DNA of 37,104 nucleotides, from positions 1 through 37,104 of the forward strand of contig NZ_FXLV01000008.1 of the NCBI RefSeq assembly GCF_900180345.1. Direction: 5' to 3'. Positions 4,210-10,292 of this stretch are shown here, piece by piece. Positions within the stretch are counted from its first letter, which is position 1. The number at the start of each line of letters is the position of its first letter. The notes below the pieces were generated by a model. It did not search any database, was not told the origin of the DNA, and saw only the letters and a program-made list of their open reading frames with translations. The translations under genes were made by a program, and so were the position numbers. This stretch comes from Bathymodiolus heckerae thiotrophic gill symbiont. GTDB lineage: Bacteria; Pseudomonadota; Gammaproteobacteria; PS1; Pseudothioglobaceae.

Positions 4210-6471
4210 TTATTTTTTTACAATAAACGCTTTAAACACAAACCACGCAAAAGCAAACACACCAACAGCAAAGACGGTATCGCCCGGCACTCTAGCCCAT
4301 ACCAGCGCATGCATAATATCACTTTGCATAAACTCGACACTGCGTGCGGAGACATAACTCTGTGAAATGCTTTGGTAGGTTTGCCATAAGCCTTGCGGCA
4401 ACAAAGACAAAAATGTCATCATTGCTAAGCCGATATTAAGCGACCAAAAAGTAATTTTCAAGAGTTTAGTATCCCATTGTTTTATGTCGGTCAAGCCACG
4501 CATGGCATATAACATCAAACCAAGACCAAGCATCCCATAAACGCCAAATAATGCTGCGTGTCCGTGATTAGCGGTAATGTTCAAGCCTTGCATATAATAA
4601 AGGGCGATTGGCGGATTGATTAAAAAGCCAAACAAACCTGCGCCAACCAAATTCCAAAACAATACCGCACTAAAAAACATGAACGGCCAATGGTAATTTT
4701 CTTGCCAAGTTTGTTGATTTTCTAATTTTTTATGGTTATATGCTTCAAATCCAATTACCACTAATGGCACCACTTCAAGTGCTGAAAAACTCGCACCAAC
4801 TGCCATAACTGAGATTGGTGTTCCACTCCAATATAGGTGGTGTAAGGTGCCCAATACACCGCCACCTAAGAAAATAATCGTGGTAAAGATTACCATTGTA
4901 GTTGCAACCGAAGTTCTTAATAGCCCCATACGCACAAACAAAACTGAAATAATTGCGGTGGCAAACACCTCAAACACACCTTCAACCCAAAGATGCACTA
5001 CCCACCAACGCCAATATTCTATAATGCTTAAGTTAGTGTTTTTGCCCCACATAAACCCAGCAGCATATAATAAGCCGATAGAAACAGTGGCAAGCACGAC
5101 AACAAATAAGAGTGATTTTAAATTTTTATCCTTAAAAGCAGGGATCAAAGCTCTTAACAATAAAACAACCCACAGCAATAAGCCAATAAATAAATAAATT
5201 TGCCAAAAACGCCCTAAATCAATATATTCATAGCCTTGATGCCCAAACCAAAAATTTAGGGTTAAATCCTCAATAAAACCATTTACTGCTAGCCATTGTC
5301 CTGCAAATGACCCCACCACAATTAGTAACAAACTAAAAAATAAAAAATTCACACCAAAGCGTTGAAATCTTGGTTCATGTCCTGAAATCAATGGTGCAAC
5401 ATAGAGCCCCGTTGCCAGCCAAGCAGTGGCAATCCAAAAAACTGCCAACTGTGTGTGCCAAGTTCTGGTGACCACATAAGGAATATAATTCGCAATATCA
5501 ATACCATACAAACCCTGTCCATCTACAGCATAATGTGCGGTAATGATACCTAGCAACACTTGAGATACAAACAATGCAGTTACTACCCAAAAATATTTTG
5601 CGGTGGCTTTCATTGAGGGTGTTACTTTGTTGTTTTCAATAAAATCAGCCGTGGCAATGCCCTGCTCAGGTTCTGAATTTTGACGCCACTTGTCAAATTG
5701 AGAGGCGTAATACCAAACAATACCGCCAATACCTGCCAATAATAAAAAGATTGAAATAATACTCCATAGCAAAACTGAAGGAGGGGGTGTGTTACCTATT
5801 AATGGCTCATGCGGCCAATTACTGGTATAAGTAATATCATCCCCAGGACGGTTAGTCGATGCTGCCCATGCTGACCAAAAAAAGAATGCACTAAGTTTTC
5901 TGGCTTTTTCTTCATCAAGAATCATTTTAATTGGAAAAGCATAGTCTTCACGAAGCTGTTGGTATTTTTGCTTATTTGAGGTATATAGATCAATATAATG
6001 CCGCTGTGTTTCGACAATTGCCGAGGCGCGATCTTGACTAATAGTAACCACACCCGTTATATTATTATAGGTATTGGTTCGCATTTCATCTCGTAAAGTA
6101 ATTTTGTGCGCTTCTCGTGTTTGGCGTTTATTATTTAAATAAAAGCCATTGGATTTTATAATACTTAACAAAGACAAAGCTTCACGATGTAGCCAATCTG
6201 CACTCCAATCAGGCGCTAAATAACCACCATGGCCCCAAATTGACCCCTGCTGCATACCACCTATAGTTTGCCAAATATTTTGTCCATCTTTAATATCTTG
6301 CTTGCTATAAACAACATCACCATTGATAATTTGCACTGCATTTGGTATGGGCGGTGCCTTCTGATAAATCTGCCCACCAAGGTATAACAAGGCAGAAAAA
6401 GACAAAACCAAACTAACAATCAGCGCTATCCACAATCTTTTAATGGTAAAAAAATCTGAATAATTTTTCAT
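4210..6471 (-). CDS. norB: Quinol-dependent nitric oxide reductase (qNOR)
   Basis: This inner-membrane enzyme reduces two NO to N2O with quinol electrons. At 753 residues it is the single-subunit qNOR (NorZ) form, having a long N-terminal periplasmic extension that replaces NorC. Heme-copper-oxidase-fold ligands are visible: HTQLAVFW for heme, HLWVEGVFEVF with the non-heme-iron His and Glu, LHHLYW with the two FeB histidines, and NHGHAALFG for the proximal heme ligands. A strong AAGGAG lies upstream of the ATG. It follows nirK on the same strand, but a terminator-like hairpin lies between them and no Dnr box precedes it. No accessory norQD genes are nearby, as usual for qNOR. Confidence 0.95.
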   Translation of the reverse strand: MKNYSDFFTIKRLWIALIVSLVLSFSALLYLGGQIYQKAPPIPNAVQIINGDVVYSKQDIKDGQNIWQTIGGMQQGSIWGHGGYLAPDWSADWLHREALSLLSIIKSNGFYLNNKRQTREAHKITLRDEMRTNTYNNITGVVTISQDRASAIVETQRHYIDLYTSNKQKYQQLREDYAFPIKMILDEEKARKLSAFFFWSAWAASTNRPGDDITYTSNWPHEPLIGNTPPPSVLLWSIISIFLLLAGIGGIVWYYASQFDKWRQNSEPEQGIATADFIENNKVTPSMKATAKYFWVVTALFVSQVLLGIITAHYAVDGQGLYGIDIANYIPYVVTRTWHTQLAVFWIATAWLATGLYVAPLISGHEPRFQRFGVNFLFFSLLLIVVGSFAGQWLAVNGFIEDLTLNFWFGHQGYEYIDLGRFWQIYLFIGLLLWVVLLLRALIPAFKDKNLKSLLFVVVLATVSIGLLYAAGFMWGKNTNLSIIEYWRWWVVHLWVEGVFEVFATAIISVLFVRMGLLRTSVATTMVIFTTIIFLGGGVLGTLHHLYWSGTPISVMAVGASFSALEVVPLVVIGFEAYNHKKLENQQTWQENYHWPFMFFSAVLFWNLVGAGLFGFLINPPIALYYMQGLNITANHGHAALFGVYGMLGLGLMLYAMRGLTDIKQWDTKLLKITFWSLNIGLAMMTFLSLLPQGLWQTYQSISQSYVSARSVEFMQSDIMHALVWARVPGDTVFAVGVFAFAWFVFKAFIVKK

Positions 6472-6484
6472 GAGACTCCTTAAT

Positions 6485-6513
6485 AAAAAATGACCTTTAT
6501 TGAGGTCGTTTTT
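6485..6513 (-). terminator. Hairpin between nirK and norB
   Basis: The sequence AAAAAA-TGACC-8-base loop-GGTCG-TTTTT is nearly symmetric and would work on either strand. On the minus strand it lies 7 bp past the nirK stop and 14 bp before the norB start. It may terminate part of the nirK transcripts so that norB receives read-through, or act as an intercistronic mRNA stabiliser. Confidence 0.65.
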
Positions 6514-6519
6514 AGTTTA

Positions 6520-7647
6520 TTATTTAATTTTACTTGGTGGCTTAACCTGTTTCATTAGGTCATTATTCCACTCGCCTTCAACAGATACATGTGCCACACC
6601 ACCTAACAAAACCGCTTCAATTAAGTTGTGATTAACATAGGCATAAATACCAGGCTGTTTAAAGGTATAAACTGCAGCCACTGCCTCACCACCGAGTACA
6701 CTCCAAGTTTCTCTATCAACTGTTGGTGTGTTGTTAAACGAGCCACCTGACCACACTTGGTCGCCATGACCACCAATTAGGTGAATGCGTGAATCTTCAT
6801 TTGCCTGGGAATGGATAAACAATACAGTTTCACCCACTTTGGCTTTCATTGCATTTTTACCCGTTAGTGCGCCTTTTTTTCCGTTATAAGTAATATGTGT
6901 TGGTACTAAATTTTTCATCACTTTTAAAGTATCATTCATAGAAACAACCGCATTAGGATAACGCTTATACTTGCCTTGTGCATCTTTTGGCACATACCAG
7001 CCCTGCTCGCCCACATAATAAGCTCGGTCATAAACTACTAGATTGCCCTTATTGTCTTTAAGTCCGTCTTTTGGCAAAATCATAATAGCACCATACATGC
7101 CTGAAACCACATGGTAAGGAATCATAACACCGCCTGGGGCACAATGATAAACATAAGTGCCTGGTCTGTCTGCTTTAAAGCGTAAAACCACCTCCTCTCC
7201 AGGCGCTACCTTGGTTAAGGCACCGCCACCTAGTGCACCTGTTGAGGCGTGAAAATCAATATTATGTACTAAAAAGTTGGTTTTCGGATTTTTGAGTGTT
7301 AATTCTACATAATCCCCCTCATGCACTACTATCAATGGACCTGGATTAGTACCAGCAAAAGTCATTGCCTGCACAAAAACCCCTGGCTCGACTTCAATTT
7401 CTTTTTCCTCGATGACCATTTCCATTTCAATAATTCTAGGCTTGCCTGAATAGCGCTGTTCGTGTTTTGGCAAGAAAGGGGGCGCAACCAATATTTGCCT
7501 CACACGCTCCAGACCTCTTAAGTTGGACTCAACACCAACACTGGCAATATAAGATTCTGCTCCCGCCTCTGCCATGGCAATATTTGATAATGACACTGAC
7601 ACTGATAAAGCTATGCTTAAACTTAATTTTTTAAATAGTTGTTTCAC
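6520..7647 (-). CDS. nirK: Copper-containing nitrite reductase
   Basis: This periplasmic enzyme reduces nitrite to NO. The 375-residue protein has a signal peptide (about 1-26, ending AMA) and two cupredoxin domains. Type 1 copper ligands are visible as H128, C169, H179 and M184. Type 2 copper ligands are H133, H168 and H340. D131 in HNIDFHAS and a histidine of HLIGGHGD (289-294) fit the catalytic pair. The spacing is that of the short AniA-like class, with no fused cytochrome or cupredoxin. It has its own Dnr-type promoter (box 7709-7722). NO produced here would be consumed by the downstream qNOR. Confidence 0.97.
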
Positions 7648-7680: not shown

Positions 7681-7722
7681 ATCATACTATATCAATTATT
7701 GGTACTCATTGATATAAGTCAA
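7681..7722 (-). promoter_or_regulatory. Dnr/Fnr-box promoter of nirK
   Basis: The minus-strand site is TTGACTTATATCAA (7709-7722), fitting the Fnr/Dnr consensus TTGAN6TCAA. The hexamer TATGAT at 7681-7686 is a good -10. If the start point is about 7674, the box centre lies at -41.5, the classic class II activator position. The start point would be 27 bp before the nirK ATG. The regulator gene ends only 4 bp upstream of the box. Confidence 0.88.
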
Positions 7723-7726
7723 GTGT

Positions 7727-8401
7727 TCAAGAAATTATAATATCTTCTAACTCAGATGGTTTAAGCAACACAATATGACTGCTGTCAACTGCTATCAAAC
7801 CTTGTTTGGAAAGCTCATTGAGTGTGCGTGAAAGCGTTTCTGGCTTAATTGAGAGTTGTGATGCTAAGATATTTTTGGCAATAGATAAATCCACATTGTT
7901 TGATTTTTTTGCATTGGCAAGCAAAAACTTAATTAACCGATACTTACCATCATGCAAAACCAAATGATTGATCTCGCTCGTCGCCCAATGCAACCGTTGT
8001 GATAGTTTACCCATAATCTTAAAACAAGACTTGGTCGAGGATTCCAGTATTTTTAAATAACATCCAGTATTAACACGCAACACCCCACTGTGTCCTAATG
8101 CGCTTGCGTTTAAGGGATATTTTCTCTGCCTAAAAAACATTACTGCCTCAGCAAAACTATGCCCTGGTTGGATGACATCAACCACCTTTTCAAGCCCCTC
8201 TGCAGACAAAAATGCCAACTTTATCTTGCCACTGACTAACAAGAAAAAATCTTTTGCTATTTGCCCCTGTTCAAAAAGACGCTGCTGGTTTTCTACCTCA
8301 ACAAAGGCAGAGAATCTGCTGATTTGTGCTAATTCATCCTCAGTAAAGCCAGAAAATAAAGCATTCGCCTGTAGAATTTTTTGATGCTCAGCACTTAGCA
8401 T
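7727..8401 (-). CDS. dnr: Crp/Fnr-family regulator, probable NO-responsive Dnr type
   Basis: This transcription factor probably switches on denitrification genes. It has an N-terminal cyclic-nucleotide-binding-like beta roll, a dimerisation helix and a C-terminal winged helix with recognition region SIKPETLSRTLNEL. The N-terminal cysteine cluster that holds the FNR 4Fe-4S centre is absent, and the neighbours are nitrite and NO reductases, so a heme/NO-sensing Dnr role is likely; that is inference. I chose the ATG at 8401 (224 residues) because AAGGGAG sits 6-7 bases upstream. A TTG at 8422 would add seven residues but lacks such a site. It follows the Sco-PCuAC gene by 17 bp in one operon. 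Confidence 0.85.
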   Translation of the reverse strand: MLSAEHQKILQANALFSGFTEDELAQISRFSAFVEVENQQRLFEQGQIAKDFFLLVSGKIKLAFLSAEGLEKVVDVIQPGHSFAEAVMFFRQRKYPLNASALGHSGVLRVNTGCYLKILESSTKSCFKIMGKLSQRLHWATSEINHLVLHDGKYRLIKFLLANAKKSNNVDLSIAKNILASQLSIKPETLSRTLNELSKQGLIAVDSSHIVLLKPSELEDIIIS

Positions 8402-8418
8402 AGTTCGCTCCCTTGTTA

Positions 8419-9387
8419 TCAATGATCAAGTTTTATTCGAATTGGAATATTGCCTGCGTTCTTAAATTTTAAACTAATATCTACAACCTTGACCTCACTT
8501 AAAGGCTTTTTTAAGCCCATAAACATAATATGATAAGACATCGGCTTTAGCATAAGCGTCTCTCCAGCTTTAAACACCTTGTTTGGTGTATGCATCATTT
8601 TTACAAAATTATCCACAACTTTGGTTTGATGTAATTCTACCCGTTTTGCTATTGGGCTTGAGACGCTGATAAGCACATCTTCTGCATTAGAAATATTGGT
8701 TATCTTGCCATAAGCGGCAGCTGATCTGGCATTTTTTGCGCCTTGATTCATATAAAAATCCTCAATCTTGATGGGTTTTGGTAACAATGAGCGTATATTG
8801 GCAATAAATTCTTTTTCAGTAGTGCCCGTATAGCCAAGGCTTCGTACATCGCCCTCAGTATCAATCAAGTATAAAACGATGCCGTGATTATAAACATTGG
8901 TAGTCGCATTTCGGGCATTACTTTTTTTGACCACACTGCGATAATCGACAAACTCAACTGGAATGTCTTCGGCAATTTTGGTATATTTCATTTGAAATAG
9001 CTCGGCAATTTGGTCAATATTTTCTCTGCTACCCGTTATACCTATAAAGTCCTTATTAAAATGCGCCATAAACTCTTTTAAATGTTGTGGTGTATCGTAT
9101 TCTGGATCAATAGAGACAAATAAAATTTTGGTCTTTTTTTGTGCATACGCAGGCAATCCTTCATATACTTTTTTTAAATAACCCAAAGTAAAAGGACAAA
9201 TATCAGGGCAGTTAGTGTAGCCATAACCCATCACTACAACATTTCCTTTGTAGTCATTGAATTGTATTTCTTTATTGTTACTGTCAATCGCACTAAAATT
9301 ACCGCCGATACCGCTTAAAACAGGTAAATTTATCCCAGCATTTGTATTTAGTGCAATAAAAATTAATAGTAATATTATTATTTTCAT
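8419..9387 (-). CDS. Sco-PCuAC fusion copper chaperone
   Basis: This periplasmic protein joins two copper-delivery domains that are usually separate. After a signal peptide (1-17) comes a Sco1/SenC thioredoxin fold (about 22-203) with CPDIC (C60, C64) and H167, the three usual copper ligands. Then follows a PCu(A)C domain (about 208-322) with H252, M263/M264, H285 and M287, matching the HxnM...HxM pattern. Both domains are known to metallate the CuA site of cytochrome oxidase; NirK is the other local copper enzyme. It sits between an unknown secreted protein and dnr, under a Dnr box, so supply for NirK is plausible. All ligands are present. Confidence 0.9.
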   Translation of the reverse strand: MKIIILLLIFIALNTNAGINLPVLSGIGGNFSAIDSNNKEIQFNDYKGNVVVMGYGYTNCPDICPFTLGYLKKVYEGLPAYAQKKTKILFVSIDPEYDTPQHLKEFMAHFNKDFIGITGSRENIDQIAELFQMKYTKIAEDIPVEFVDYRSVVKKSNARNATTNVYNHGIVLYLIDTEGDVRSLGYTGTTEKEFIANIRSLLPKPIKIEDFYMNQGAKNARSAAAYGKITNISNAEDVLISVSSPIAKRVELHQTKVVDNFVKMMHTPNKVFKAGETLMLKPMSYHIMFMGLKKPLSEVKVVDISLKFKNAGNIPIRIKLDH

Positions 9388-9412: not shown

Positions 9413-10222
9413 TTAGCAGGTTAGTTTATCCCAAGCCCCCATATCAGGTAGAAGCAGTCGTTCTTTGATGTTAAGTAGTTGGTAATTTCCACCCATTTCT
9501 TTCTTCATATCAACTGTCTGTTCAATCTTGGCAATCCCTAGCTTGCCCTTATTGGTAATGCCATTCCAACGGATAATAAGCACTATCCGTAAACTGTCTT
9601 TGGTGTTTTTTATTACTTCAATGCTGCGTAGTAAATACTGCCCAACACCCATCCATTCCTTATGCTTTGATAGGGCGGCTGATAATGTGCCTTGATACTG
9701 CTTTGCCCCTATTTGTAACTGATGCTTGGCATTATTAATCTTATTTTCAAACAACGCTGTATTACCATTTAAGTATGCTAGCCACTTATAAGCAAAATTT
9801 CGATACTGATAATGGTCTTTATCAAATGTGCTTGGTGTACTTATTGTATCAATTTCTTTGCTTTCTAATCTGTCAATTTTAATAAAATTGTTATTTTTAT
9901 TCAAATCAAAAACAAAATTCTCATTGATTTGCTTGGTTTTTATTTGCTGATTGTGTAAATAATTAAAATGCACTTGAGTTACCAATATAAAGTGTTCCTT
10001 GTTTTTGTTCAACTGGGTGTCAATAATTTGTATACTTTGAATATTATCTGGATAATTATTTGTATGCTTGTTGTTCATTAATTTATCGTACCAACCCATA
10101 ACCGAAGCAACAATTGTATTTAGATTTTTAGCATACGATTTTTCAGTGACCGCATAATTTGCTAGGACTGTATTTGGGAAATATAAAAATATCAAAAAGG
10201 ATGCTTTTAGAATAGTATGCAT
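9413..10222 (-). CDS. Secreted protein of unknown function in the Dnr operon
   Basis: I do not recognise this 269-residue protein. It has a signal peptide (about 1-21, ending VLA) and a hydrophilic, lysine- and asparagine-rich mature part with alternating beta-like and helical stretches. No CxxCH heme motif or clear metal-binding cluster is visible, and the only cysteine is the last residue. It is the first gene of the operon driven by the Dnr box at 10279-10292, followed 25 bp later by the Sco-PCuAC gene and then dnr. The context suggests a periplasmic role in nitrite/NO respiration or copper handling. Its base composition is more AT-rich than that of its neighbours. Confidence 0.75.
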   Translation of the reverse strand: MHTILKASFLIFLYFPNTVLANYAVTEKSYAKNLNTIVASVMGWYDKLMNNKHTNNYPDNIQSIQIIDTQLNKNKEHFILVTQVHFNYLHNQQIKTKQINENFVFDLNKNNNFIKIDRLESKEIDTISTPSTFDKDHYQYRNFAYKWLAYLNGNTALFENKINNAKHQLQIGAKQYQGTLSAALSKHKEWMGVGQYLLRSIEVIKNTKDSLRIVLIIRWNGITNKGKLGIAKIEQTVDMKKEMGGNYQLLNIKERLLLPDMGAWDKLTC

Positions 10223-10250: not shown

Positions 10251-10292
10251 ATTATCCAAACTATAATTAGAAATATCCTTGACACAAGTCAA
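10251..10292 (-). promoter_or_regulatory. Dnr/Fnr-box promoter of the secreted protein-Sco-dnr operon
   Basis: The minus-strand site is TTGACTTGTGTCAA (10279-10292), a near-perfect Fnr/Dnr box. GATAAT at 10251-10256 serves as the -10. This puts the box centre at -41.5 from a start point near 10244, exactly the same layout as at nirK. Because dnr is the last gene of this operon, the regulator probably activates itself. Confidence 0.88.

Follow-up and report, generated by a model that had tools for sequence, protein, structure and literature searches.

The window, the 37,104-nt stretch of the Bathymodiolus heckerae thiotrophic gill symbiont genome that was analysed, carries on its minus strand the gene order coxB-coxA-ctaG-coxC-SURF1, then a Dnr box followed by X, SCO1-PCuAC and dnr, and then a second box followed by nirK and norB (Table 1). 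X, the subject of this study, is separated from the SCO1-PCuAC gene by a 25-nt gap, and both the CPDIC and the HX10MX21HXM motifs of the SCO1-PCuAC product are intact. Inspected by eye, the interval between nirK and norB (6472-6519) contains GACCTcaataaAGGTC, which resembles a hairpin and runs into a stretch of T; it may act as an intrinsic terminator or attenuator.

Table 1. Features of the X locus, with positions in the window.
Feature	Position	Strand	Basis or remark
norB, quinol-type nitric oxide reductase	4210-6471	-	PF22085 and COX1
nirK, copper nitrite reductase	6520-7647	-	TIGR02376, E 3.8e-138, above cut-off
-10 TATGAT ahead of nirK	7681-7686	-	Motif position
Second Dnr box, ahead of nirK	7709-7722	-	Exact consensus match
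dnr, Dnr-like Crp/Fnr regulator	7727-8422	-	Pfam; ORF from TTG, ATG at 8401 likelier
SCO1-PCuAC fusion, periplasmic copper chaperones	8419-9387	-	Pfam SCO1-SenC 6e-33, PCuAC 6e-27
X ORF, 269 aa, predicted exported tandem NTF2-like protein	9413-10222	-	ATG start, stop TAA
X C-terminal half, residues 132-269, complete NTF2-like domain (predicted)	9416-9829	-	Fold search
X N-terminal half, residues 22-131, helix and 4 strands, NTF2-like (predicted)	9830-10159	-	Separate AF2 model, pLDDT 81
Probable Sec signal peptide, X residues 1-21, cleavage VLA/N	10160-10222	-	Sequence and hydropathy
-10-like GATAAT of X, class II spacing, box centre at -41.5	10251-10256	-	Motif position
Dnr/FNR-type box TTGACTTGTGTCAA upstream of X	10279-10292	-	Exact consensus match

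Because TAA and TGA stop codons precede it in frame at a short distance, the ATG of X is the plausible start. Read by eye, the N-terminus shows K6, a hydrophobic stretch and the cleavage site, and the N-termini of the homologues, likewise judged by eye in the family alignment, are comparable and end in A-x-A-like sites. The signal peptide claimed in the initial annotation is therefore probable. The same annotation had placed X in no known family, and this was confirmed: for the window protein and 21 family members no family was found in Pfam or NCBIfam and no sequence match in the PDB. The NTF2/SnoaL-type Pfam models were not matched by the 21 members apart from one chance-level match to NTF2_YvbJ (E 0.18). 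X gave no match to the PF04314 domain, and no HXnMX21-22HXM motif was found in it; PF02630 (SCO/SenC) was not matched, and X has a single Cys, so that no CxxxC is present. The domain of NirV is formylglycine-generating-enzyme-like, and no NirV-type domain was detected in the 21 members at Pfam E <= 0.5. X is a new protein family within a known kind of system.

The structure prediction and fold search suggested in the initial annotation yielded two NTF2-like domains. The AlphaFold2 model, built from nine sequences (pLDDT 75, pTM 0.75), consists of two helix-plus-sheet halves. The C-terminal half is modelled as a curved antiparallel sheet with a long helix lying against it, was matched by Foldseek at E 2.8e-5 and reached VIA Z scores of 11-12.5 over 107-133 residues; its flexible tail (pLDDT <50) ends in Cys269. 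For the N-terminal half the best Z was 9.6 to LinA (101 residues aligned, rmsd 2.8), and Foldseek alone gave no match at E <= 0.001. An internal sequence duplication between the halves was considered and dropped, hhalign having found no profile similarity. X is thus predicted to comprise two NTF2-like domains, the C-terminal half clearly so and the N-terminal half with weaker support. X resembles the NTF2-like superfamily in how both of its halves are predicted to fold (Z 12.5 and 9.6), whereas the two tandem domains, the probable export and the undetectable sequence similarity set X apart, and shared function is not implied. NTF2-like folds serve many functions, and the fold of X names none. 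The matches include LinA, ketosteroid isomerase, NTF2 and the CaMKII hub, and the presence of NTF2-like enzymes such as LinA and ketosteroid isomerase among the top-scoring folds would suit a periplasmic enzyme or small-molecule binder, for instance one handling NO, nitrite or some reactive nitrogen compound that NirK produces. We consider such an activity improbable: X has no sequence family match, and its ties are to nirK and the copper chaperones, not to any substrate pathway.

The box ahead of X had been described as near-perfect and in fact matches the consensus fully. Exact TTGAYN4RTCAA sites occur twice in the window (0.28 expected), once before X and once before nirK, and 32 times in the whole genome versus five times for a reversed control pattern. 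Both -10 elements lie exactly 29 nt past the box centre and share five of six bases with TATAAT. The box ahead of nirK recurs at most of the homologous loci, and the same offset between box and -10 was seen ahead of nirK in several relatives. This class II spacing is supporting and not decisive, since other offsets score equally in the AT-rich window. By its box and spacing X is a predicted member of the Dnr/FNR regulon, to whose promoter Dnr is predicted to bind. The dnr product has the ETLSR recognition-helix motif, which we take to be the one expected for TTGA half-sites, and lacks the N-terminal Cys cluster; by what is established for such regulators it is probably of Dnr type.

Homologues of X were found at 22 loci in 21 genomes, belonging to Thioglobaceae/SUP05, Methylophagaceae, Hydrogenovibrio and two other Gammaproteobacteria. 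A protein search of 58 relatives recovered X in four other genomes. The profile search placed it in 7 of the 83 genomes of the window's family and also reached Methylophaga, Hydrogenovibrio and one unplaced gammaproteobacterial MAG; 11 of 57 Methylophagaceae-family genomes held 12 copies, and a class sample added one further genome (G279). The GTDB contig scan returned no loci with a single-sequence query and eight with an alignment-based query. In the plasmids and viral contigs searched no X homologue was found; the related SCO-PCuAC loci found on plasmids of Alphaproteobacteria include a second SCO but no X. Among the plasmid records, the Dysgonomonadaceae-labelled one of the pair CP070278.1/NZ_CP066788.1 is almost equal in length to a Martelella plasmid, shares its SCO-PCuAC match and source type and is probably mislabelled.

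SCO lies directly downstream of X at all 22 loci, and nirK directly upstream at all 21 loci outside the window; this nirK-X-SCO order spans two well-sampled families and several further lineages. At most of these 21 loci PCuAC follows SCO, and it is fused to it in several Thioglobaceae. Fusion was observed in some Thioglobaceae including the window, and separate genes in Methylophaga, Hydrogenovibrio and Ca. Thiodubiliella (L013/L014 vs L015-L017, L019, L030). Six of the seven X genomes of the window's family carry a second PCuAC beside the housekeeping copy. One Methylophagaceae genome (G456) has two nirK-X-SCO-PCuAC clusters (L040 and L044), one of them at a contig edge. In Ca. Thiodubiliella nirK is split over two ORFs (L019 4503-5641), and in G094 dnr is (L032 7669-8349), in each case by a frameshift or an assembly error. 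Genome G098 is assigned to another genus, yet on one of its contigs (C107, 4.2 kb; L022) dnr, nirK and norB share 95-97% identity with the window genes, which reflects either recent transfer or a binning contaminant.

Compared with the other loci, the gene order in the window (X-SCO/PCuAC-dnr, then a second box and nirK) has been rearranged locally, and X and SCO stayed together through the change. The position of X beside SURF1 and coxCAB in the window, where it leads SCO, and the classical service of SCO and PCuAC to CuA could point to an assembly factor for the CuA/CuB centres of cytochrome oxidase. We hold this to be very unlikely, as X sits with nirK and not with a cox operon at the Methylophaga, Hydrogenovibrio and SUP05 loci, and in G021 and the window's genus the cox-SURF1 side is found next to dnr-nirK whether or not X is present.

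The position directly after nirK at 21 of 21 loci outside the window speaks for a function directed at NirK itself, which need not involve copper: X could be a folding, trimer-stabilising, membrane-docking or electron-donor-docking partner of the enzyme, with SCO and PCuAC serving the same enzyme as neighbours. NTF2-like domains often mediate protein-protein contacts and oligomerisation, as the CaMKII hub and NTF2 among the matches recall, and apart from the terminal Cys, no cluster of Cys, His or Met residues and no metal-binding cluster is conserved in X. The ties of X to SCO weigh on the other side. In the 20 non-window sequences examined (20 of 21 in all) the end of X and the beginning of SCO share 7 nt, so the two are probably translationally coupled, and X in the window has kept SCO though nirK has moved. 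We rate a copper-independent NirK partner as possible, though rather unlikely.

The terminal Cys269 is invariant in 21/21 sequences, and we considered it as a copper, redox or active site. In 20 of the 21 its TGY codon lies in the SCO start codon (A followed by TGY), which forces Cys or Trp and mostly explains the invariance. X in the window, ending in ACC TGC with no SCO overlap, is the only copy that keeps the Cys independently. As the overlap with the SCO ATG confounds its conservation, we downgraded this candidate and give Cys269 little weight.

The initial annotation would have been contradicted by homologues found mainly in genomes or places without denitrification genes; instead, all 22 X loci carry nirK and SCO, and the profile search for co-occurrence found X only in nirK-positive genomes in three samples. 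In the window's family X occurred in 7 of 15 genomes with nirK versus 0 of 68 without (hypergeometric P 1.5e-6, phylogeny ignored), in the Methylophagaceae-family set in 11/19 versus 0/38 (P 4e-7, likewise ignoring phylogeny) and in the third sample in 3/20 versus 0/349 (P 1.4e-4, with the same limitation); nirK was counted at slightly different E-value limits in the three. In the NirK tree all X-linked NirKs fall into one clade of moderate support (84/88), within which X-negative members are scattered; judging from the tree, these are best read as losses. Three apparent absences (G098, G004, G466) lie at contig edges, the G098 contig beginning inside PCuAC. A role as a general denitrification gene was rejected, X being absent from 397 other phylum-sample genomes and from nirK loci outside this one NirK clade.

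One loss has left a scar. In G006 (L025 6440-6570) the Dnr box and ~14 initial codons of X run directly into the ~33 final codons of PCuAC, and dnr, nirK and norB follow with intact frames downstream of the X promoter. By this junction, X and SCO-PCuAC were lost in one deletion and nirK was kept. Broken PCuAC-tail fragments lie at the equivalent position in G008, at a contig edge. As nirK-positive relatives without X exist (G006, G021, G065/G018 and G455), one of them with the scar, X is not strictly required for NirK. The joint loss also ties X to SCO-PCuAC, which argues against a NirK partner indifferent to copper, and marks the trio as accessory. That X can be lost, as in G006 and G021, would also suit a passenger retained by operon inertia alone, which strikes us as highly improbable: X has been kept with nirK across families at 26-40% identity to the window copy; 18 positions are invariant, and no copy has a broken reading frame.

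Altogether, the genomic context leads us to propose, at what we judge an even chance, that X is a periplasmic accessory factor acting with SCO and PCuAC in the copper loading or assembly of this NirK lineage. A periplasmic factor of nitrite/NO respiration had been proposed in the initial annotation; the context supports this, tying X to NirK and to the delivery of copper rather than to NO. In the proposed sequence of events, a Dnr-type regulator would switch on X, SCO-PCuAC and nirK, as the boxes suggest; X would be exported via Sec and fold as two NTF2-like domains; and together with the co-encoded SCO and PCuAC it would bring apo-NirK into, or keep it in, a Cu(I)-receptive state, an action most useful when copper is scarce. 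From genomic context alone, copper loading is not separable from folding, stabilisation or partner docking. More tentatively, X may be a dedicated assembly factor of one NirK lineage, its two NTF2-like domains serving as a scaffold on which apo-NirK is held against SCO/PCuAC for Cu(I) insertion at low copper.

Related arrangements are known. In Neisseria the NirK AniA receives its Cu from AccA, a chaperone of the PCuAC type, and added Cu rescues the loss of AccA (PMC13006917). The likeness is a NirK-dedicated PCuAC-type chaperone there and a PCuAC domain encoded beside X here; X itself is not a PCuAC, however, and would be an additional component. In Paracoccus denitrificans N2O reduction at low Cu is supported by pcuC, senC2 and Pden_4445, a gene of unknown function (PMC7558416). 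This system, compared by gene company, again joins SCO, PCuAC and a third uncharacterised protein for a denitrification cuproenzyme, although the target studied there is NosZ. By analogy with AccA and senC2/Pden_4445, the joint loss in G006 would fit a function that becomes important under copper scarcity. NirV, commonly the second gene beside nirK, is non-catalytic, not mandatory for NirK and has been reported chiefly from Alpha- and Betaproteobacteria and Bacteroidetes (PMC4770552). X resembles it as a non-catalytic nirK companion dispensable for NirK and differs in matching no Pfam or NCBIfam model and in its predicted NTF2-like fold.

NirK has been described as maturing without the need of other genes (PMC4770552). 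Its loading by a PCuAC, a recent finding, runs against an unfavourable Cu(I) gradient, and the means of overcoming this penalty have been left open (PMC13006917). If X is an assembly factor, it might explain how the gradient to NirK is overcome by PCuAC, and a conserved third component beside nirK, SCO and PCuAC makes the question of Cu(I) loading directly testable. The literature searched contained no paper joining NirK with an NTF2-like protein.

To our knowledge, no NTF2-like protein has been placed in cuproenzyme maturation so far, and on the assembly-factor reading X would be the first. NirK produces NO and so commits nitrite to loss as gas. The family occurs in marine sulfur-oxidising and methylotrophic bacteria, where it was previously undescribed, and its hosts, marine SUP05 relatives, mussel symbionts and Methylophaga, make it relevant to nitrogen loss from low-oxygen waters.
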